This document shows, piece by piece, positions 11,427 to 52,967 of a DNA stretch of 64,000 nucleotides (position 1 is its first letter; each line of letters begins with the position of its first letter). Position numbers and translations under genes: made by a program. The notes beneath the pieces are model-generated. The model made no database searches, had not been told where the DNA came from, and was given only the letters and a program-made list of their open reading frames with translations. Source of the stretch: Rhodothermales bacterium (GTDB taxonomy: Bacteria > Bacteroidota > Rhodothermia > Rhodothermales > UBA10348); assembly GCA_040221055.1 (NCBI GenBank), contig JAVJVN010000004.1:1-64000 (forward strand), given 5' to 3'.

Positions 11427-12634
11427 GGGTTTGTATTTGTAACCTCACAGGTTACATTTTGCTGGATGGTCGCAATGCCCTCCGGGAGCGGGATTTCAGG
11501 CAGACGGGCCGACGGCGAGAGGCGGGCGACCACGTCGTCCGTCGGGCGGGGGTTGGGCTCGGCCCACAGCTCGCCGCGGGTGGAGCGCATGACGACGTGG
11601 TCGCCCGCCCGTCCGAGGACCCAGGACCGGTTCAACGGTACTTTCCCGAAGGGCGTATCGAGCACGTAGACCGGCAGTGCGAATCCGGTAAGCCGTCCCT
11701 GCAGGCGTTCCATCAAATCCATGCCCACCTCGATGGACGTCCGGAAATGGGCCGTCCCGCCGATGACCTGGGCCTGATAGAGGTAGTAGGGGCGCATCCG
11801 AAGGCGCACGAGCCCCTCGAAGAGGGCGCGGAGCGCATCTTCCGAATCATTGATCCCGGCCAGCAACACGGTCTGGTTGCCCACGGGCACGCCCGCGCGG
11901 AGCAGCCGGTCAATGGCCGCACCCGCCTCGGGGGTCAACTCCTTCGCGTGATTGAAGTGCGTGTTCAGCCATACCGGATGGTGGCGGCCCAGCACGGCGC
12001 AGAGGTCCGGCGTAATCCGCTGAGGCAATTTGACCGGCATCCGGCTGCCAATCCGGATGATGTCCACGTGCGGGATGGCGCGGAGTCGGCCCAGCAGCCA
12101 TGCCACATGCTCGTCGTTGAAGGTCAGCGGATCGCCGCCGGTCAGCAGGACATCCCGGATTTCGTCGTGCGCGGCAATGTAGTCGATGGCCTCCTGCAGC
12201 TCCGACTTGCGCATCATGAAGGAGGCCTCGCCCACCATCCGCTTTCGCAGGCAGTACCGGCAGTAGATGGCGCACTGGCTGGTCACGCAGAACGCCACGC
12301 GATCCCGGTAATTGTGGATGAGATTCTTGACCGGCGAATGGGCGACCTCCTCCAGCGGATCTTCGACGCCCACGATGTCGGGAAGCAATTCCTCGGCCCG
12401 CGGGACGACCTGTCGCCGGATGGGGCAGTCCGGATTGTCCGGGTTCATGAGGCTGGCGTAATACGGCGTAATACTCCACTGGAACACGCCCTCGGTCTGC
12501 CGGATGCCCGCGAGTTCGTCGGGTGTCGGCTCGAGGAATTGGCGGAGCGCATCTGCCGAGCCGACCCGGTTGCGCATGTGCCAGCGCCAGTCGGCCCAAT
12601 CAGTCTTGGTTTGCAAGGGCGTGTCGAAGGGCAT
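11423..12634 (-). CDS. KamA-family radical SAM aminomutase-like protein, unusual substrate pocket
   Basis: Protein of 403 aa. It has the N-terminal TDWADWRWHMRNRV motif of lysine 2,3-aminomutases and the radical SAM CX3CX2C cluster site CAIYCRYC near residue 118. DVLLTGGDPLTF and IRIGSRMPVKLPQRIT also follow the family. Known family members move an amino group from C2 to C3 of an amino acid using PLP. The block YYLYQAQVIGG...HFRT aligns without gaps to C. subterminale KamA and places Gln289 where KamA has Asp293, while Asp326 matches Asp330. Loss of one lysine-binding Asp argues against lysine as substrate. It overlaps the ATP-grasp gene by 35 nt upstream and the His-rich gene by 4 nt downstream. 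Confidence 0.85.
   Translation of the reverse strand: MPFDTPLQTKTDWADWRWHMRNRVGSADALRQFLEPTPDELAGIRQTEGVFQWSITPYYASLMNPDNPDCPIRRQVVPRAEELLPDIVGVEDPLEEVAHSPVKNLIHNYRDRVAFCVTSQCAIYCRYCLRKRMVGEASFMMRKSELQEAIDYIAAHDEIRDVLLTGGDPLTFNDEHVAWLLGRLRAIPHVDIIRIGSRMPVKLPQRITPDLCAVLGRHHPVWLNTHFNHAKELTPEAGAAIDRLLRAGVPVGNQTVLLAGINDSEDALRALFEGLVRLRMRPYYLYQAQVIGGTAHFRTSIEVGMDLMERLQGRLTGFALPVYVLDTPFGKVPLNRSWVLGRAGDHVVMRSTRGELWAEPNPRPTDDVVARLSPSARLPEIPLPEGIATIQQNVTCEVTNTNP
11438..11456. repeat. TGTAACCT-N3-AGGTTACA palindrome, copy 1
   Basis: Perfect 8-bp inverted repeat with a CAC spacer. It overlaps the last codons of the KamA-like gene and lies 12 nt upstream of the start of the His-rich gene. The same arms occur at 39644-39662 inside hutI. 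It may be a transcription factor site or a small dispersed palindrome. Confidence 0.6.
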
Positions 12635-27520: not shown

Positions 27521-27705
27521 CCCAGCCGTCGTGTGTGGAGTTCCAGACACGCCAGCCGTGCATTCATAACCCATCCGGGGCAGGCCAGCGCTACCGGGTT
27601 CCGGAGTCCGTTTCCGGAGTCCGCTCGCGCGGAGGCAGGCTGAGCCCATCCGGACCGGTTGCGAACCCCATTGCATGGGTGCGGATTGGGGATTTACGAG
27701 CCGAA

Positions 27706-38515: not shown

Positions 38516-39001
38516 CTAAAGCGTCTCAAACCGGTTCTCTGCCCGGTTCTTGCGGACCGTACCCCTCGGGAAGACGCATCCGTTCATGGCGATGTAGGCG
38601 CCCGGCGGCAGCGTCTGGACCGCCCCGATGGCGAATCCGATGTTGAACTCCGCATCGGATCCCTTGAAACGGGCGGGACTCAGCGATCCGACCAGCACGA
38701 TGGTCCGGTCCTCGGCGACGCCGGCAAGGGCATCCTGCGTATCGACCATCGTGTCGGTGCCGTGCGTAATCAGGATGTGCTTGTGGGGGCTCTCGGCGAC
38801 CGTCCGGACGATCTGTTCGCGGTCCTCGTCCGTGATTTCCAGGCTGTCCTTCTGGAAGAGCGGCGTCACCTCGAAGTCCATGAGCGCGTTGGCCGTGCGC
38901 AGGATGTCCACGATCATCGGCTCGCCGATGGTATAGTCCGACTTGGCGTCGAAATACACCTTGTCAATCGTGCCGCCGGTCGTGATGATATGCAGGGTCA
39001 T
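38516..39001 (-). CDS. Single-domain asparaginase-like protein
   Basis: Protein of 161 aa from ATG 39001 (MTLHIITTGGTID). It carries the asparaginase signatures of the N-terminal domain, ITTGGTIDKVYFDAKSDY and ILITHGTDTMVDTQDALA, and GRs such as IVLVGSLSPARF. Classical L-asparaginases are about 330 aa and have a second domain; this one ends after the first. Short versions are known in several bacteria, usually without proven activity. Its first 38 nt overlap the end of hutI, so it is co-translated with histidine catabolism and may handle an amide or formimino product. Confidence 0.82.
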   Translation of the reverse strand: MTLHIITTGGTIDKVYFDAKSDYTIGEPMIVDILRTANALMDFEVTPLFQKDSLEITDEDREQIVRTVAESPHKHILITHGTDTMVDTQDALAGVAEDRTIVLVGSLSPARFKGSDAEFNIGFAIGAVQTLPPGAYIAMNGCVFPRGTVRKNRAENRFETL

Positions 39002-40238
39002 GGGAGCGCTCGCCTTTGATGAACGTCGCCGTGCAGGCGTCGGACCGGAAATGATACAGCCAGTGGTTGACATCCGGAACCTCCAACACCGTGAAGTTGG
39101 CGTGCTTTCCGGGTTCAATGGATCCCATGACGTCCTCGCGGCCCATGGCCCGCGCGGCGTACAGCGTGGCGCCCTTCAGCGCCTCGGCCGGCGTGAGCCG
39201 GTTCATGGTACAGGACAACATGAGGGCGAGGGGCAAATCGTACGACGGCGCCGAGCCCGGATTGAAGTCCGTCGCCACCGCCACCGCCGCTCCAGCATCC
39301 ACGAACATGCGTGCATCCATGGGAGGCTGTTTCAGATACAGCGATGCCAAGGGCAACGCCACCGCCACCGTCCCAGCCGCAGCCATGGCTTCAGCACCCG
39401 CCTTCCCGGTGAATTCCAGATGATCCGCGCTGACGGCTTCAACCGATGCGGCAAGTGCGGCCCCGCCTCCGTCGTGCAATTGGTCCACGTGCAGCTTGGG
39501 ACGCAACCCGTGTTTGCGCCCCGCCTCAAGGATGCGCCGCGCATGCTCGATGGTGAATGCCGTGTCTTCGACGAATACATCGTTGAACTCGGCGAGCCCG
39601 GCTGCCGCGACCTGCGGAATGAGTTCGTCGGTGATCATTGAAATGTAACCTGCCAGGTTACATTTATCGAAGTCGGGGAAGATGTGCGCCGCCAGGAGCG
39701 TAGGGACGATTTCAACCTCTTGCAGCTCATTGAGTTGGCGGTACAGGAGCAGCATGCGCATTTCCTGCTCCAACGACAGGGCATAACCCGTCTTCGCCTC
39801 GATGGCGGTCACGCCGAGCCGCCGCATGGCGCGCAGGTACCGCAACCCATGCTCGAGCAAGGCCCCGTCCGAAGCCGCCCGCGTCTGCCGTACGGTCTTG
39901 CGGATGCCTCCTCCTTCGCGGGCAATGTCCAGGTAGCTCTTCCCGGCCAGTCGGGCCGCGAATTCGTCGGCGCGCCATCCGCCGAAGAGCAGATGCGTGT
40001 GGCAATCAATCAGTCCGGGCACGACGGCCTGACCACCGGCGGAAACCCGGGGCTCTTCGGCGTACGCAGATGGCAAATCCGCCTCGCGGCCTACCCACTC
40101 GATCACCCCGTCGCGGTACACGACTGCCGCGTTCTCGATGGGCTGGATGCCGGCCTGTCCGCCTTCGTCGCGGCACTGCGCCAGCCAGGATATGTCAGTG
40201 AGGATGGGCACCCCGTAATGTACACGTGCTCGACGCAC
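38964..40238 (-). CDS. hutI: Imidazolonepropionase
   Basis: Protein of 424 aa. The amidohydrolase features are clear: VVPGLIDCHTHLLFGGWRAD (metal His pair), GGGIRKTVRQTRAASDGAL, VTAIEAKTGYALSLEQEMRM, LLAAHIFPDFDK, PKLHVDQLHDGGGA and VAVATDFNPGSAPS with the late catalytic Asp. It opens the imidazolone ring in step three of histidine degradation. The 40238 start is GTG; another GTG at 40211 (before PILTDISWL) better matches the usual family start. The upstream flank is the repeat array, so the gene is cut off from hutUH. A perfect TGTAACCT palindrome lies inside the coding region. Confidence 0.92.
   Translation of the reverse strand: MRRARVHYGVPILTDISWLAQCRDEGGQAGIQPIENAAVVYRDGVIEWVGREADLPSAYAEEPRVSAGGQAVVPGLIDCHTHLLFGGWRADEFAARLAGKSYLDIAREGGGIRKTVRQTRAASDGALLEHGLRYLRAMRRLGVTAIEAKTGYALSLEQEMRMLLLYRQLNELQEVEIVPTLLAAHIFPDFDKCNLAGYISMITDELIPQVAAAGLAEFNDVFVEDTAFTIEHARRILEAGRKHGLRPKLHVDQLHDGGGAALAASVEAVSADHLEFTGKAGAEAMAAAGTVAVALPLASLYLKQPPMDARMFVDAGAAVAVATDFNPGSAPSYDLPLALMLSCTMNRLTPAEALKGATLYAARAMGREDVMGSIEPGKHANFTVLEVPDVNHWLYHFRSDACTATFIKGERSHDPAYHHDRRHD
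39641..39665. repeat. TGTAACCT-N3-AGGTTACA palindrome, copy 2 (11-bp arms)
   Basis: AAATGTAACCT (39641-39651) and AGGTTACATTT (39655-39665) are perfect 11-bp arms around GCC, inside hutI codons for KCNLAGYI. The central 19 bp match the copy at 11438-11456 except for the spacer. Confidence 0.6.
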
Positions 40239-40243
40239 GGTTC

Positions 40244-40290
40244 CACAGATACATTCTTCACCGATCTCCCTGCTCAGGACCGTTTCTCAC
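40244..40290. repeat. 29-nt-period motif array, left block (2 copies)
   Basis: Two degenerate copies of the 18-nt motif ctcaggtacatttttcac start at 40244 (cacagatacattcttcac) and 40273 (ctcaggaccgtttctcac), exactly 29 nt apart. The block ends 6 nt upstream of the GTG start of hutI. Confidence 0.7.
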
Positions 40291-40300
40291 GGGCGTGGCT

Positions 40301-40383
40301 GGGGGGATTTCCGGTCGGCCATCTCCAATCTTGCCCGAACATGGGCGCCCATATAGGGGAGATGGAGGCCCGAAGATCCCCCC
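40301..40383. repeat. Central imperfect inverted repeat (26-nt arms)
   Basis: The arms 40301-40326 and 40358-40383 are the same length and match at 20 of 26 positions without gaps (ggggggat at the outer ends, ccatctcc at the inner ends). The 31-nt loop contains gggcgccc. Symmetry this long is unlikely by chance and may form a hairpin. Confidence 0.65.
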
Positions 40384-40422
40384 ATCCCCGCCCGTTTTAC
40401 CGAACTCAAATTGGGATCCCCA

Positions 40423-40527
40423 CTCAGTATCATTTTTCACAGACCTGCCGACTCAGGTACATTTTTCACGCGTTTTCCCGCTCAGGTACGTTTTTCACGC
40501 GATTGTCAGCTCAGGTACAAATTTCAG
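40423..40527. repeat. 29-nt-period motif array, right block (4 copies)
   Basis: Copies of ctcaggtacatttttcac start at 40423, 40452, 40481 and 40510, exactly 29 nt apart. The two central ones are near identical and the outer ones have a few changes. The 11-nt spacers vary (agacctgccga, gcgttttcccg, gcgattgtcag). Confidence 0.85.
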
Positions 40528-40617
40528 GGGCCGGAATCGTTTTTCATGGACGAGGACTCGGGGATTCATCCCAGGTCAAGCCAGAGCGGATGTATACATC
40601 GTCGCCATAATCACTCG

Positions 40618-43600
40618 TCAGACGGCCACCTTTGCGACACGGAGCCAGTCCGCAGGCATTGGCGTAGCAAGTCGCCATAATATGTTCATTGGCCTCTCGC
40701 CCGAGTGCTCAACGTAGGACACTGGGCCAAGGAACAGGTAGGCCGAAGTCGTTCCGTGCTCTGTCTTTTTCCTTTCGCGGATGAAGAGGAGCGGTGTGAC
40801 TTGTTTCTTCCGATGCTGCCAATGTCGCCTGCCCTTCTCCGAATCCGGTCGTGTCCGACTCTGCGACTGCCAGTGAAAATCTTGGGCCGACACCGCATAA
40901 TCCTCGTACATGGTCGACGGGGAGTAGTCTTTTTCCGACTTGTGCAGAGTAACAAAAAGAAGATTGGCCTGCGACGGGGCATGATATACCACGCCTTCAC
41001 GTGGCCGATACAGCTTTCCGTTTCGGATATCGCCAAACGCAGACATCACGTCATCCAGACTGTACGAACAGTGGAGCGAGAGCGGGACTTCCTCGGGGAT
41101 ACCATCCGCCCGTCGTGGCACGTGGGTGATCCTTTCACCGAGAATGGGAAGCAATTCAGATATCTCTTGGACAATTGCTGGATGCTTGAAGAACAAGCTC
41201 ACCGAATCTGCGATGTTTCCAGCAGCTGATTCGCCAAACAACGTGACCATCAACATTATTACCCGGCGACGATCGGCCTCACTCAGTTGTCTCAAAAACG
41301 ACTCTGCGTCTGTGTGGGACAGGAGTTCTGAATAGACCGCAAGACGCCTTGGTTCATCCACGTGGAGCAGCCGCACGATTCCTCTTGCCAGAACATCTTC
41401 TTTCGGACCGGCGGCCGGTACCCGAAAATTTGCCGCCCGACGCAGGTCACTGTAGCTGCGACCACCCCTGTACACTTCCTCTACCTCCAGACCTGTCTCC
41501 CCCAAGAAGACAGCCAAAGATGTGTCGGGGCCGAGCCGGACCAGTTCTTCGACCAGCTGACTTCGCCGACTGCCAACGGCACGTTTGATGTTCTCCAGGA
41601 CGATGTCTCGGCTGGCCCTATCCAATTGCAGCGTGCAGCCCGACGGGAGCAATGGGAAACCTTGCTCAACTTGACGCTCTACCTGTCTTCGTGTCGCCCC
41701 CGTGATGGCGCGAAACTTGAGATCGAATCGATATTCTCGCCGGGCTTGCCCGATGAAGTCGAGAACGGTCAAACACTCTTTCCCGTCATTTGTCCGCAGT
41801 CCGCGCCCCAGCTGTTGCAAAAACACGGTGGCACTGTTCGTTGGGCGCAGAAAGAAAATTGTGTCGACTTCAGGAATATCCACGCCTTCGTTGAAGAGGT
41901 CCACTACAAATATTGTACAGATCTCACCTCGCCGCAGCCGACTAATAGCGGTAGCTCGGTCCTCCCTCGAAGAAGAACCCGTTAGCGCTATTGCGGGCAG
42001 ACCAGCCTCAGTGAATTTCGCGGCCATGAACGCCGCGTGCCGGACGCCAACACAAAAACCGAGTGCCTTCATGGATAAAGGCTCAGTGACTTTGTCCTTG
42101 ACGGCCTCAAGAATCAGGTTTACCCGAAAGTCGCTGGCCGTATACACATCCTCTAGCTCAGAATCGTCATAGCTCCCCCTTCGCCAAGTCAGTGCAGAAA
42201 TATCCACATTGTCATGCACACCAAAGTATTGGAACGGAACCAACTGGCCGAGGTCAATCGCGTCCCACAAGCGCAATTCGTACGCCGTCCGACCGTCAAA
42301 CCACTCCCGGACGTCAGCACCATCGGTCCTCTCAGGCGTAGCGGTGAGTCCCAACAATTCCTTTGGACGAAGGTGCTCCAGAAGCCTACGGTACGTTCGA
42401 GCCTCAGCGTGATGAAACTCGTCCACGATTACGACATCCCAGGCTGACGCATCAATGTCTTTCAAGGGGAGATTCGCCAACGACTGGACGGAGGCGAACA
42501 CATGCACACCATCTCTCGGTCGTTCCCCATCGACATACATTTCTCCGAAACTGCCGTCTCGCAGGACGTTCCGGAATACCCTTCGACTCTGTTGAAGGAT
42601 TTCTTTGCGATGAGCAACAAAAAGCAGCGAAGGCTGCTTTCCCTTCCCAACCATTCGCTTGTAATCGAGGGCTGCCACGATCGTTTTCCCTGTACCAGTT
42701 GCAGCTACAATCAGATTCTTGTGGCGATCGTGGACAGATCGCTCAACCTCGAGACGTTCCAGAATTTCTTTCTGGAATGAATGGGGCGTGATGTCAAAGA
42801 ATCCGATTGAGATGCTGTCCGGAGAGCGCTCCTGAGCAATCGCCGAGCGGAACGTGCTCACATCGGCGGGAATGCCCGTGTATGGCACGAACTCATCGTC
42901 GTGCCAGTATGTCTCGAACGTAGCATTGAACTTTTGAAGGATGCGCGGTGCATCGATAGCCGACACTCGGACGTTCCATTCCAATCCATGGACCTGTGCC
43001 GATGCAGATAAATTTGACGAACCGATATAGGCTGTCGTGAATCCCGTCTTGCGATGAAACAACCACGCCTTGGCATGCAGGCGCGTGCGGCGGGTGTCGT
43101 AAGAAACCCGAACCTCCGCACCATTATCGACCAAGAAGTCCAATGCACGCTGCTGCGTGGCTCCCATATAGACGGTCGTAATTACTCGTATTTGAACTCC
43201 ACGCAACCGCGCCGCCTTCAACTCCTCCTCGAGCACACGAATTCCAGACCACTTGATGAATGAGAGCAGCATGTCAATCCGATCGGCCGATGCTATCTCA
43301 CGGGCTATTTCAAACCCGACCCTGAATTCGCCGGTTGCGTTTACCAGCAATTGAGACTCCGACAGGGGAATCCCGGGACGCGGCGTAGCGTCCCTTGAGG
43401 TCCAGTTTCCTTTGGGACGCACCTCACGCAGGACTTTTGATTGAACACGCCCCTCCCCGCTCGGAGATCCACTCGTGTGCCGTTCAATCAGGGTCACGAT
43501 GTCATTCGCAAGCGTAATCTGCCTGGCAGTCTTCTGATCACTGGGCATTCCTTTAAGTGCCCGCTCAATTTCCGCATGAAGATGCCGGGCCAAAATTACG

Positions 43601-43737
43601 TGCACCTCCGCCTCATCCATTTCCTCCATTGCCGCTTGCAGTTCCTTAGCCAAACGGACACGCTCCTCAAGTTCGAGCGTGAGAACAGCTTCATAGAGGC
43701 CTGGAGTCAGACTGGTATTTTCTGTCGATGAGTGCAT
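40618..43737 (-). CDS. PLD-nuclease/DEAD-box helicase/DUF3427 protein (defence-like)
   Basis: Protein of 1039 aa. Residues about 115-290 form a phospholipase D-type domain with an HxK half-site and GSSNLSASAQ (RRTRLHAKAWLFHRKTGF). Residues about 315-680 form a superfamily 2 helicase: VAATGTGKTIVAALDYKRM (Walker A), VVIVDEFHHAEARTY (DExH), GLTATPERTDG, and the C-terminal half with FLQQLGRGLRTNDGKECL. The remainder fits DUF3427. Similar proteins are found in accessory islands and resemble restriction-type or phage-defence helicases. Base composition is clearly less GC-rich than the flanking hut genes, pointing to transfer. The first 90 residues are helical with no known domain. Confidence 0.9.
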   Translation of the reverse strand: MHSSTENTSLTPGLYEAVLTLELEERVRLAKELQAAMEEMDEAEVHVILARHLHAEIERALKGMPSDQKTARQITLANDIVTLIERHTSGSPSGEGRVQSKVLREVRPKGNWTSRDATPRPGIPLSESQLLVNATGEFRVGFEIAREIASADRIDMLLSFIKWSGIRVLEEELKAARLRGVQIRVITTVYMGATQQRALDFLVDNGAEVRVSYDTRRTRLHAKAWLFHRKTGFTTAYIGSSNLSASAQVHGLEWNVRVSAIDAPRILQKFNATFETYWHDDEFVPYTGIPADVSTFRSAIAQERSPDSISIGFFDITPHSFQKEILERLEVERSVHDRHKNLIVAATGTGKTIVAALDYKRMVGKGKQPSLLFVAHRKEILQQSRRVFRNVLRDGSFGEMYVDGERPRDGVHVFASVQSLANLPLKDIDASAWDVVIVDEFHHAEARTYRRLLEHLRPKELLGLTATPERTDGADVREWFDGRTAYELRLWDAIDLGQLVPFQYFGVHDNVDISALTWRRGSYDDSELEDVYTASDFRVNLILEAVKDKVTEPLSMKALGFCVGVRHAAFMAAKFTEAGLPAIALTGSSSREDRATAISRLRRGEICTIFVVDLFNEGVDIPEVDTIFFLRPTNSATVFLQQLGRGLRTNDGKECLTVLDFIGQARREYRFDLKFRAITGATRRQVERQVEQGFPLLPSGCTLQLDRASRDIVLENIKRAVGSRRSQLVEELVRLGPDTSLAVFLGETGLEVEEVYRGGRSYSDLRRAANFRVPAAGPKEDVLARGIVRLLHVDEPRRLAVYSELLSHTDAESFLRQLSEADRRRVIMLMVTLFGESAAGNIADSVSLFFKHPAIVQEISELLPILGERITHVPRRADGIPEEVPLSLHCSYSLDDVMSAFGDIRNGKLYRPREGVVYHAPSQANLLFVTLHKSEKDYSPSTMYEDYAVSAQDFHWQSQSRTRPDSEKGRRHWQHRKKQVTPLLFIRERKKTEHGTTSAYLFLGPVSYVEHSGERPMNILWRLATPMPADWLRVAKVAV

Positions 43738-43793
43738 TATTCAGAATTTCCTGGGAGATTGCTCGATCACCAGAATACTAGACTCCCGGAACC

Positions 43794-44228
43794 ATGAATC
43801 CAATTCAATACAAGGACACGCAAATGTCAGTGTCCATAGGCGACCTGAATGCGTCGAGCAATTCAAAACGGCATTCGCCTGTTTCTGTCAGTGCCTCTCT
43901 GCGTCTTGGCGCACTCTGCATCGCCGTGGAGAATAGTAGAACAAACCACACCGTTGAATTACTCGTTGAAGATGTCACGCTAAAACAGCTCAATTTCCTG
44001 ACTGCAGGAATCGAATCCGTCGCCGAGACTTTGCGCAATTTTCCACCTAGAGCGGTTGTTCGACCGACCAGAATTTTGCCAACTGGAGACGTGGAGGTTG
44101 TCGATTCTCCGTCCGAAGCAACCATGTTCAGCGTCTACATGCGGGTGGGACCGGAAGAGAAATGGATATCTGATTGCTCTACTCTGGACCACGCGCAATC
44201 GCTAGCCGATGCAGTAAATACAGACTGA
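43794..44228 (+). CDS. Small hypothetical protein divergent from the helicase gene
   Basis: Protein of 144 aa, or 134 aa if the ATG at 43824 is used, which has a better ribosome site (aagga 7 nt before). No family is recognised. The segments VSASLRLGALCIAVENSRTN, then HTVELLVEDVTLKQLNFLTA and EEKWISDCSTLDHAQSLADA suggest a compact alpha/beta protein without signal peptide or membrane helix. It starts 56 nt from the helicase start in the opposite direction and shares its lower GC content, so both probably arrived together. It stops 27 nt before the hutH stop. It may be an accessory or control protein of the helicase. Confidence 0.6.
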   Translation: MNPIQYKDTQMSVSIGDLNASSNSKRHSPVSVSASLRLGALCIAVENSRTNHTVELLVEDVTLKQLNFLTAGIESVAETLRNFPPRAVVRPTRILPTGDVEVVDSPSEATMFSVYMRVGPEEKWISDCSTLDHAQSLADAVNTD

Positions 44229-44255
44229 CTACAACGACCTGCCTAGAAACACAAG

Positions 44256-45776
44256 CTACCCCAACCCCCCGACCTCGGCCTCCACCGCCTGCTGCAGCGC
44301 GGAGGTCCGGACGAGTTCGACGCAGGGGCGCATGTCGTCCTGGAAGAGGTAGTCGGCTTCGCGGTGCGGGACGACGGTGCGGACGTAGCGGTGGGCGACT
44401 TCCACGCCGCGACCGGGGCGGAGCGGGGCCCGGTAGTCCAGGGCCTGGGCGGCGGTCAGGAGCTCGATGGCCAGGACGTGCTCCACGTTCTCCAGGACCT
44501 GCCAGAGCTTGAGCGCACCCACGCTGCCCATGGACACATGGTCTTCCTGGCCCAGACTCGTCGGAATGGAATCGACGCTGGCGGGATGGCACAGCACCTT
44601 GTTCTCCGATACCAGGGCGGCCGACGTGTACTGTGGAATCATGAAGCCGGAATTCAGGCCGGTTTCCCGCATGAGCAGCCGGGGCAGTCCATCGTGCCCC
44701 TCCAACAGGAGGTAGGTCCGGCGCTCGGAGATGGAGGCGAGCTCGGCGATCGCAATGGCGGCATAATCCAGGACGAGCGCCAGAGGTTGACCATGGAAAT
44801 TCCCTCCCGAGAGGACCGAGCCCCTTCCACCCTCTACGCCTTCGCCGCCCCCCGGAAACACCAACGGGTTGTCCGTCACCGAGTTGATTTCCGTCTCGAC
44901 GACGTTGACGGCGTGGCTGAGCGCATCGCGCGACGCGCCATGCACCTGCGGAATGCATCGCAGGGAATAGGGGTCCTGGACCTTGCCGCAATTCCGGTGC
45001 GATTCGAGGATCTCGCTTTCCTGCAGCAACAGCCTGACGTTCTTCGCCACGGTGACCTGTCCCGGATGGGGCCGGACGGCGTGGATGCGCGCATCGAAGG
45101 GGGTCGCGCTGCCCTGCAAGGCCTCCAGGCTCATGGCGCCCAGGATGTCGGCCGTGCGCACCAGACGCGTGGCGCGGTGCAGGATGAAGGCCGCATAGGC
45201 GGCCATGAACTGCGTTCCGTTGATGAGCGCAAGGCCGTCCTTGGCTTGCAGCGCAATGGGTTCCAGCCCCTCCTCCGCCAGCACTTCGGCGGCGGGCCGC
45301 TCGGTGCCGTCCGGCAGGGTGAAGGCGCCGTATCCGATGAGCGGCAACGCCATGTGCGCCAACGGCGCCAGATCTCCGGACGCCCCTACCGATCCACGCG
45401 TGGGCACGGCGGGCACCAGGTCCCGCTCGGCGAACAGCAACAGCCGATCGAACGTCGCGCGGCTCACGCCGGAGTATCCCTGGCCCAAGGCCACGATTTT
45501 CAGCTGCAGCATGAGGCGGGCAATTTCCCGCGGGACGGGCGCTCCCACGCCGACGGCGTGACTCAACAACAGATTCCGCTGCAGGTCGCCGAGTCGATCG
45601 TCGGGCACACGGGTGGAGGCCAACTTCCCGAAGCCTGTGTTGACGCCATAGGTCGGCTCCCCGCCGGCTACGACGTCTTCCAGGACACGGCGCGACGCAT
45701 CGACCCGCTCGGCATTCGCGCGAAGCGAAGCGAGCGCATCATCCAGATCAGAAAAGAGGGTGGCAATACGGATCAT
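44256..45776 (-). CDS. hutH: Histidine ammonia-lyase
   Basis: Protein of 506 aa. The MIO-forming triad is in [20 protein letters not shown] (Ala-Ser-Gly, about residue 143), with the family segments [34 protein letters not shown] and [20 protein letters not shown]. It removes ammonia from histidine to give urocanate, the first step of the Hut pathway, in the cytoplasm. Its start overlaps the hutU stop by 4 nt, so they form a coupled pair. Downstream, where hutI would be expected, lies the foreign helicase insert. Confidence 0.95.
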
Positions 45777-51577: not shown

Positions 51578-52852
51578 TCAAGGTCCGAGAAGGGCGGCCG
51601 GGACGACGGCTATGCCGTCCTTGCGACGATACGCCTGGGGCCCGGTGGTAATGATCATGGCATCCAACATATCGGCCCCGGCTTTCTCCTTCAACCAGTG
51701 CAAATGCGCGGCATCGGAGTCTTCGGGGGTCGACGACAATTTTACTTCGGCGGCAACGAATCGCCCATCCGGGCGCGCAATGATCAAATCTACTTCATGG
51801 CGCTCCCCCATGGTTCGCATATGATACACGTTGGCCTCACACGCCTGGGCATACACTTTCACGGATTGCGTTACCAGGCTTTCGAACAGATGGCCGAGCA
51901 GCGTGCCGTCACGCGGGACGGGCGGGCCAGCCTCCTCGCCTTCGAGCAATGCTTTCCGGCTCAAACCGAGGAGGGATACGGCCAATGCCGGATCCACCAG
52001 TTGGTGCTTGGGCGGCCGGGTCAGGCGCCCCAGATAATTCCGTGACGGTATCCAAGCGGGTACCTCGTCCAGAATGAACAACCGCTCCAGCGTATCCCGA
52101 TACGGAATGACCGTTGATTTGGCCGGCTTGTCTGCCGTTCCTGCCGTCGCCGCATCCCGGATGGTCTCATACGAGGCGGTCGTGGACGTCGCCGCGGCGT
52201 AGGCTGCCATCCATCGCCGCAACAGGTCGGGCTTGCGTACGACCACACCCAGTTCGTCGAAATCCTGATCCACAATCCGTTCCAGATATCCCGCGATCTG
52301 CTGCCTGTGGGACCGCCCCGTCAACTCCCGTATCCCCGGAAAACCGCTCTCCACAATGAAGTCGACGTAGGATTCCAGCGTCAGGTCCGACGTACCCGAG
52401 ACGGGCCCCGGCTTTCCGCTGTCCAGCATGTTCGCGAGGCTGACCGAGGCCGACAATCCTGTTCGCTCTGCAATCGAGAGCGGCCGCATCCGGACACGAA
52501 CGATCCTTCCAGCACCGGAGTGCCGTGGTACGGTCGGACCGGCTGATCCCGTCAGAATGAATTGGCCTGGCGATCGATCCTCATCCACGGCGCGGCGTAC
52601 TACGTCCCAGACTTCCGGTACATACTGCCATTCATCAATCAGTACCGGTCGCTCTTTCCGACTGATTTGTCGGGGATCGGCCGCGATGATGGCCCGCTGC
52701 GTGCTGTCGTCCAGGGAAATGACGGTCGCTGCACGTCGTTGAGCGGTTACGGTCTTCCCGACCGCCTTGGGACCGTCCAATGACAGGGCTGCGACCCCTC
52801 CCAGCAGGTCGTCCAATTCTCCATCGACTATGCGCTTGTAATACTCCGCCAT
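51578..52852 (-). CDS. AAA ATPase with DUF4143 domain
   Basis: Protein of 424 aa from ATG 52852 (MAEYYKRIVDGELDD). The ATPase part carries ALSLDGPKAVGKTVTAQRRA (Walker A) and ERPVLIDEWQYVPEVWDVVR (Walker B), then GQFILTGSAGPTVPRHSGAG. The C-terminal DUF4143 part has HLFESLVTQSVKVYAQACEA and HEVDLIIARPDGRFVAAEVK, the D...E..K layout of restriction-like folds. Such proteins are widespread, often mobile, and poorly characterised. The frame extends 14 codons upstream to an ATG inside the fourth repeat of the 23-nt array; that start is probably an accident of the repeat. Confidence 0.87.
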   Translation of the reverse strand: MAEYYKRIVDGELDDLLGGVAALSLDGPKAVGKTVTAQRRAATVISLDDSTQRAIIAADPRQISRKERPVLIDEWQYVPEVWDVVRRAVDEDRSPGQFILTGSAGPTVPRHSGAGRIVRVRMRPLSIAERTGLSASVSLANMLDSGKPGPVSGTSDLTLESYVDFIVESGFPGIRELTGRSHRQQIAGYLERIVDQDFDELGVVVRKPDLLRRWMAAYAAATSTTASYETIRDAATAGTADKPAKSTVIPYRDTLERLFILDEVPAWIPSRNYLGRLTRPPKHQLVDPALAVSLLGLSRKALLEGEEAGPPVPRDGTLLGHLFESLVTQSVKVYAQACEANVYHMRTMGERHEVDLIIARPDGRFVAAEVKLSSTPEDSDAAHLHWLKEKAGADMLDAMIITTGPQAYRRKDGIAVVPAALLGP

Positions 52853-52879
52853 GGCACTTTCGTCATTGATACGGGAATA

Positions 52880-52967
52880 TACGCTACCGTTCATCCACTT
52901 CCTACGCTACCGTTCATCCACCTTTTACGCTACCGTTCATCCACCTCCTACGCTACCGTTCATCCAC
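52880..52967. repeat. 23-nt-period motif array (4 copies)
   Basis: The 19-nt core tacgctaccgttcatccac occurs without change at 52880, 52903, 52926 and 52949, exactly 23 nt apart, with 4-nt variable spacers (ttcc, cttt, ctcc). The array lies between the starts of the divergent DUF4143 gene and the broken glycosidase gene. On the minus strand each copy contains ATG. Confidence 0.92.

Follow-up and report, generated by a model that had tools for sequence, protein, structure and literature searches.

An evenly spaced array of 18-nt motifs beside hutI in a Rhodothermales bacterium: a candidate orphan binding array at the margin of a defence insertion

In the window analysed here, a stretch of 64,000 nt from a Rhodothermales bacterium, the region 40244-40527 next to the hutI gene carries a short motif repeated at strict intervals. 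The question raised by this locus is whether the repeats are sites for a DNA-binding protein, and of what kind, or the residue of an ordinary duplication. We found six copies of an 18-nt motif, all on the + strand and arranged in blocks of two and four, with a pitch of exactly 29 nt inside each block, which bears out the description in the first-pass annotation; the coordinates are collected in Table 1. The copies match ctcaggtacatttttcac at 15, 14, 15, 18, 17 and 15 of 18 positions in order, and their weight-matrix scores are 21.8-28.7 bits. With no more than 3 mismatches allowed, five copies were counted against 0.01 expected from shuffles, while the copy at 40273 has 4. The period-29 repeat score was 35.0, compared with a maximum of 18.2 in 40 first-order Markov simulations of the 64-kb window in which any period of 18-60 could score, so the earlier statement that the array is too regular for chance was upheld. 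The two blocks are out of common register, the distance 40423-40273 being 150 nt, or 5x29+5. A CRISPR reading was ruled out by the lengths, as the annotation had also concluded: the repeats are 18 nt and the spacers 11 nt, whereas CRISPR repeats are about 23-47 nt long with spacers of similar length.

Table 1. Positions in the window of the motif copies, the hairpin and the surrounding genes
Feature	Position	Strand	Basis or remark
Motif copy 1, CACAGATACATTCTTCAC	40244..40261	+	motif scan, weight matrix
Motif copy 2, CTCAGGACCGTTTCTCAC	40273..40290	+	29 nt after copy 1; hairpin repeat begins at the next base
Motif copy 3, CTCAGTATCATTTTTCAC	40423..40440	+	motif scan, weight matrix
Motif copy 4, CTCAGGTACATTTTTCAC	40452..40469	+	equals the consensus
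Motif copy 5, CTCAGGTACGTTTTTCAC	40481..40498	+	motif scan, weight matrix
Motif copy 6, CTCAGGTACAAATTTCAG	40510..40527	+	motif scan, weight matrix
Possible degenerate copy, out of register	40530..40547	+	weak: 9.0 bits, against up to 13.6 at unrelated places in the window
Dispersed hairpin repeat, 1 of 6 genome copies	40291..40394		blastn, covariance model, fold
Insertion between hutI and hutH, approximate extent	40215..44257		comparison with relatives; edges approximate
hutI, imidazolonepropionase	38964..40238	-	profile, relatives
Type IV (modification-dependent) restriction enzyme	40618..43737	-	profile: PLD nuclease, helicase, DUF3427
144-aa ORF, no family	43794..44228	+	ORF list, profile searches
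hutH, histidine ammonia-lyase	44256..45776	-	profile, relatives
AAA_14-DUF4143 ATPase gene	51578-52894	-	array 52880-52967 upstream

The motif and spacer columns of the array were compared by permutation, and copy 2 was excluded from both tests because the hairpin follows it directly. In the four full units, mean pairwise identity was 0.81 in the motif columns and 0.41 in the spacer columns (p 0.03, boundary free); when the last unit was included, whose 11 nt have no motif after them, the values were 0.78 and 0.35 (p 0.0002). These results suggest that the motif sites are better conserved than the spacers, a difference that is supported but not proven over few units. Such a contrast is the pattern expected of binding sites with indifferent spacers, and the unequal divergence is unlike the prediction for a neutral 29-bp tandem repeat.

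The blocks are separated by an inverted repeat, which the first-pass annotation had recognised. It is longer than the 26 nt given there: the arms at 40289-40326 and 40358-40395 measure 38 nt each, are 82% complementary and lie 31 nt apart, and the hairpin folds with RNA parameters at -66.1 kcal/mol (z -5.4). When the array region was compared with its own genome by blastn, five further places were found, at which the hairpin part alone matched (genome G000, C15:10173, C15:110468, C8:17623, C11:17219 and C18:178318). All six hairpin copies, of about 104 nt, contain an exact 17-mer that has no other exact occurrence in the genome; four of the six start with GGGCG and four end with CGCCCG. A covariance model built on the six copies recovered those six in the own genome, and under the stricter filters of large searches none of 113 further genomes from the order gave a match. 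Of the stem cells, 94% are paired and 3 pairs are altered on both sides; shuffles attained the paired percentage in 20/500 and the covariation score in 32/500, and the covariation across the six copies is modest. In both copies inspected (C11, C15a) the ORFs on either side converge on the hairpin. The hairpin resembles the REP/BIME/MITE-like elements, which are dispersed intergenic palindromes, in its length, its six copies and its paired stem, but differs from them in that the Rfam search gave no family at the curated score, no target duplication was visible by eye at the hairpin copies, and no parent element was found, the exact core occurring at no further place in the genome.

Within 4.5 kb around the five other hairpin copies, the best array-motif score was 12.3 bits, compared with at least 21.8 for the array copies. 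The hairpin is a dispersed repeat separate from the array, and the earlier view of it as part of the array was abandoned; since the motif is missing at the other five places, its presence inside the array is probably incidental. Insertion of the hairpin with a target duplication into a single 29-nt register was considered and found no support, as excising 104 nt leaves 46 nt, not 29 or 58. Two side observations concern the hairpin copies. A repeat of ~165 nt (about 69-72% identical) was seen near three of the six (L024:1957-2118, L026:1757-1920 and L027:2044-2209). A 26-nt stretch at 27677-27702 in the window is 96% identical to one copy's outer arm and is perhaps a half copy; the covariance model gives no hairpin there.

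We then turn to the surroundings of the array. HutI matches at E<=1e-60 were present in 24 of the 27 genomes of the family, own included. In all 19 assessable relatives hutH and hutI adjoin, with their aligned parts at most 74 nt apart, whereas in this genome they are 4.0 kb apart (locus L089). Seven relatives were not assessable: three had no match at the cut-off, one had a hutI truncated by the end of the locus, and three of the same genus had a distant hutI (43-46% identity) with no hutH beside it. On this comparison the array locus is an insertion of ~4 kb that splits hutH from hutI, and the array lies at its hutI edge. The link drawn in the first-pass annotation between the array and a helicase island was therefore sustained, the array lying inside this insertion; an array before hutI in genomes that lack the helicase, named there as the contrary outcome, was seen in none of the 19, in keeping with their short gaps. 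A role as control or recognition region for the island, also put forward there, is conceivable. ACCCC occurs at 40210-40214 and again at 44258-44262, and a 5-bp target duplication is possible but unproven, a 5-mer common to two G/C-rich edges being likely by chance. The hutI start is likely the GTG at 40211-40209, because the alignment with most relatives begins at residue 9-12 (at 2-5 for three).

The larger gene of the insertion encodes a likely phage-defence enzyme, a 1039-aa protein that has PLD, helicase and DUF3427 domains and matches PADLOC mREase_IV at E 1.6e-271; relatives at E<=1e-100 were found in 23 of the 247 phylum genomes searched, the own genome among them. In its domains and in the PADLOC match it resembles the SauUSI-like type IV restriction enzymes; SauUSI has the domain order PLD, helicase, DUF3427. 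The locus differs from theirs in the array, as no 29-nt array was found at the other 23 restriction-gene loci scanned (flanks of up to 1.5 kb, some shorter). The 144-aa ORF belongs to no family in three profile libraries and has no relative among plasmids or viral contigs. Beside one restriction-enzyme homologue (L105:4077-4316) we observed a palindromic TTCACAAAATGTGAA-like word at 45 nt in about 5-7 copies, which may be coding.

The array was searched for elsewhere. In the own genome of 3.32 Mb, motif matches within 3 mismatches occur at this single place, and two motifs in register (<=3 mismatches) were found in one of 394 phylum genomes, an even draw from a larger group; that one is the own genome, leaving 0/393 others, so the search for further copies in genome and relatives that the first-pass annotation had proposed yielded none. 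In a collection of 84,980 species the exact 18-mer was found once in each of 5 stretches, where no further motif copy (<=6 mismatches) lay within 300 nt; in viral contigs the 18-mer gave 0 matches. A paired pattern matched 4 contigs of identical sequence, from one phage lineage, within a coding gene, and two further paired patterns gave 0 and 0 matches. A degenerate form of the 18-mer was found in 14 contigs, none with a neighbour 29 nt away. By blastn against plasmids there was no match at E<=1; when the limit was raised to E<=10, the matches comprised 23 phage records, the best at E 0.4, and 2 plasmid records at E 4. The two plasmid matches are a coding stretch, which we take to be cyoE-like, and a CRISPR spacer carried by a Nostoc plasmid. 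The latter match (23/25 nt, E 4) is at chance level and hints only faintly that the target could be mobile; a search with the spacer itself gave nothing useful. The viral, phage and plasmid matches of the array are all at chance level.

No other 29-nt array was detected when periods 24-40 were scanned in 337 loci (1.76 Mb, many overlapping), a scan that kept 27 alone among the multiples of 3 and passed over low-complexity rows. Within the 464 kb sampled (14% of the genome, window included), the other rows were the DUF4143 array described below, rows with periods 18, 30 and 33, which as multiples of three may include coding repeats, and a weaker two-copy 26-nt repeat. A facing array near 44250 was absent: the best weight-matrix score at 43700-44350 was 8.1 bits, compared with 21.8-28.7 bits in the array itself. 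In the same 464 kb, a 25-nt palindrome, AAATGTAACCTG-CAGGTTACATTT, was noticed at 6 places within 6 mismatches (window 39641-39665 and 11435-11459; L251, L255 and L260; also L028:2613), and its half-site resembles the array core. Its copy in hutI was considered as an inserted repeat and rejected: five relatives align there with a length difference of at most 2 residues, and on this alignment the copy is placed in a protein stretch shared by relatives and not in an insert.

The ends of IS21 elements were the known system named in the first-pass annotation, which had suggested a remnant or a non-autonomous derivative. An IS21 end carries several direct repeats and a terminal CA, and the repeats are bound by IstA, two being required, at a reported separation of 23 bp (PMC10122671). 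We sampled IstB loci, 30 of them in the phylum and 80 on viral contigs. In the phylum set, 28 of 30 loci gave a right flank; repeats were found in 19 of these 28, all at 22-24 nt or double, and the remaining 9 had no repeat over the threshold. Among 60 non-redundant viral-contig flanks, 27 scored >=11, with periods 24 (11 flanks), 23 (9), 22 (6) and 44 (1); this cut-off is below 13, the 95th percentile of random stretches from the same loci, so some of the 27 are weak. A best period of 29 was found in 0/60. On 83 IS21 right flanks the array weight matrix had a mean of 2.92, not above the 3.27 of shuffles. The three best of these scores (L139, L126 and L135) fall inside real repeats, and as single ends they come close; at some IS21 ends (L131, L139 and L126) the sequence is GGTACACTTT or GGATCATTTTTCA, close to the array core GGTACATTTTTCA.

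The genes of an IS21 element were likewise sought in the own genome. Six partial matches to the IstB profile were found in frames of 328-891 aa, three of them over the Pfam cut-off (best 1.4e-8; frames of 500-886 aa), and there was no full IstB, with no match at 1e-40. The rve domain, through which an IstA-like transposase was sought, matched at three other places (frames of 303, 624 and 228/149 aa); no such transposase was found, and none of the three loci scanned there shows an array. The array is therefore like IS21 ends in having several short direct-repeat sites, some members sharing a GGTACA(C/T)TTT core with it, and it differs in its pitch of 29 against 22-24 nt and in having no second end, no full IstB and no motif score above shuffles. 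We rejected the reading as an IS21 end after testing the spacing, the motif, the genes and the presence of a second end, and the remnant suggested at first found no support in any of these tests. The array may work like a transposon end, yet it is not assigned to IS21.

A second kind of spaced array occurs in the same window. At 52880-52967, four perfect 19-nt copies at 23 nt lie just upstream of an AAA_14-DUF4143 gene. Homologues of this gene were collected from the phylum, from plasmids (14 of the 40 matches listed) and from viral contigs (loci L264-L289 and L310-L337), and 48 loci were analysed after one that was cut short and one near-duplicate had been removed from 50. The results showed that the best period was 22, 23 or 44 in the 260 nt upstream at 40/48 loci, compared with 8/47 downstream and 7/48 inside the gene. 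At scores >=13, these periods made up 26/27 upstream, 1/4 downstream and 0/0 in the gene, giving a strong array upstream in 26/48 loci. The array motif varies between loci, and the distance from array to start codon is 15-112 nt, with one at 170. AAA_14-DUF4143 genes tend to carry 22/23-nt arrays just upstream. In the literature searched for DUF4143 or AAA_14 with direct repeats we found no description of such arrays; PMC4406477 names the DUF4143 domain in a table. The array beside hutI shares with these the spaced direct repeats, the locus-specific motif and the position just upstream of a start codon, but their pitch is 22-23 nt against 29, and the 29-nt array adjoins hutI and the restriction enzyme with no DUF4143 gene. 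The 22/23-nt arrays were sampled only beside DUF4143 genes.

Four explanations of the array were weighed. We give even chances to an orphan array of several binding sites, akin to a transposon end or an operator, that arrived with the island. The same orientation and exact pitch of all copies within the blocks support it, as do the contrast between motif and spacer columns, the insertion with its defence-type gene and the single occurrence in the genomes searched; comparable spaced arrays are found at IS21 ends (22-24 nt) and upstream of AAA_14-DUF4143 genes (22/23 nt). Against it, no binder, second end or second copy was found, and no other 29-nt-pitch array in the loci surveyed. Within this reading, the end of a transposon yet to be named and an operator array of a lost or yet unrecognised partner are weighed about equally, the former slightly ahead. 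The drift of an ordinary 29-bp tandem duplication, that is a functionless minisatellite, is doubtful: it would fit the single locus, the differing units and the lack of a partner gene, and with a conservation test of p 0.03 on four clean units a decaying duplication keeps some probability, but motif and spacer diverge unequally and such arrays are rare in the 464 kb sampled.

A tandem operator that came to control hutI, or the island, after the insertion is improbable in our judgement. The array starts 32 nt ahead of the likely hutI start codon, a distance like that between DUF4143 arrays and their genes, and on the hut strand it stands between the restriction gene and hutI. However, the 19 assessable relatives all lack the space for it ahead of hutI, so that a conserved hutI operator was discarded; no regulator gene was recognised beside the array; and a scan of 40150-40700 for sigma-70-like sites gave a single site, on the + strand and pointing away from hutI, where 0.4 are expected by chance. 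Very unlikely is an IS21-family end whose IstA-binding repeats outlived a deleted element body. Repeated direct sites at a single end, together with the terminal CA, are IS21 traits (PMC10122671), and the core-like words and the three best matrix scores point the same way; the repeats detected at IS21 right ends, none best at 29, the flank scores no better than shuffles, the rve matches at three other places in a genome that has no full IstB, and the missing facing end all speak against it.

For the orphan binding array, we infer that the array is protein-bound, came with the island and is now an orphan. The 18-nt motif would be a putative site for one DNA-binding protein, and the direct orientation and 29-bp pitch would let several copies of that protein bind side by side. 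The array would have arrived at the hutI edge of the ~4 kb insertion carrying the type IV restriction enzyme and would since then have lost its partner. It is from position alone that arrival with the island, not before or after it, is read, and the orphan state is suggested by the lack of a second copy, a facing array and an obvious adjoining binder gene in the searches above. A wider proposal, which we regard as a long shot when its three parts are taken jointly, is that the array is an orphan of a broad class, yet to be described, of locus-private, evenly spaced recognition arrays; that the main example of this class would be the 22/23-nt arrays before AAA_14-DUF4143 genes, whose partner would multimerise on its own array; and that the 29-nt pitch would mark a new partner family travelling with defence islands.

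Parting the hairpin from the array dissolves a false composite. What remains is an array at one margin of a defence insertion, which splits a metabolic operon conserved in relatives. If it is bound, the array would be the trace of a multimerising DNA-binding protein with a pitch unlike that of IS21. The private 22/23-nt arrays before AAA_14-DUF4143 genes form a consistent, testable pattern and are a more promising object than the 29-nt array itself.
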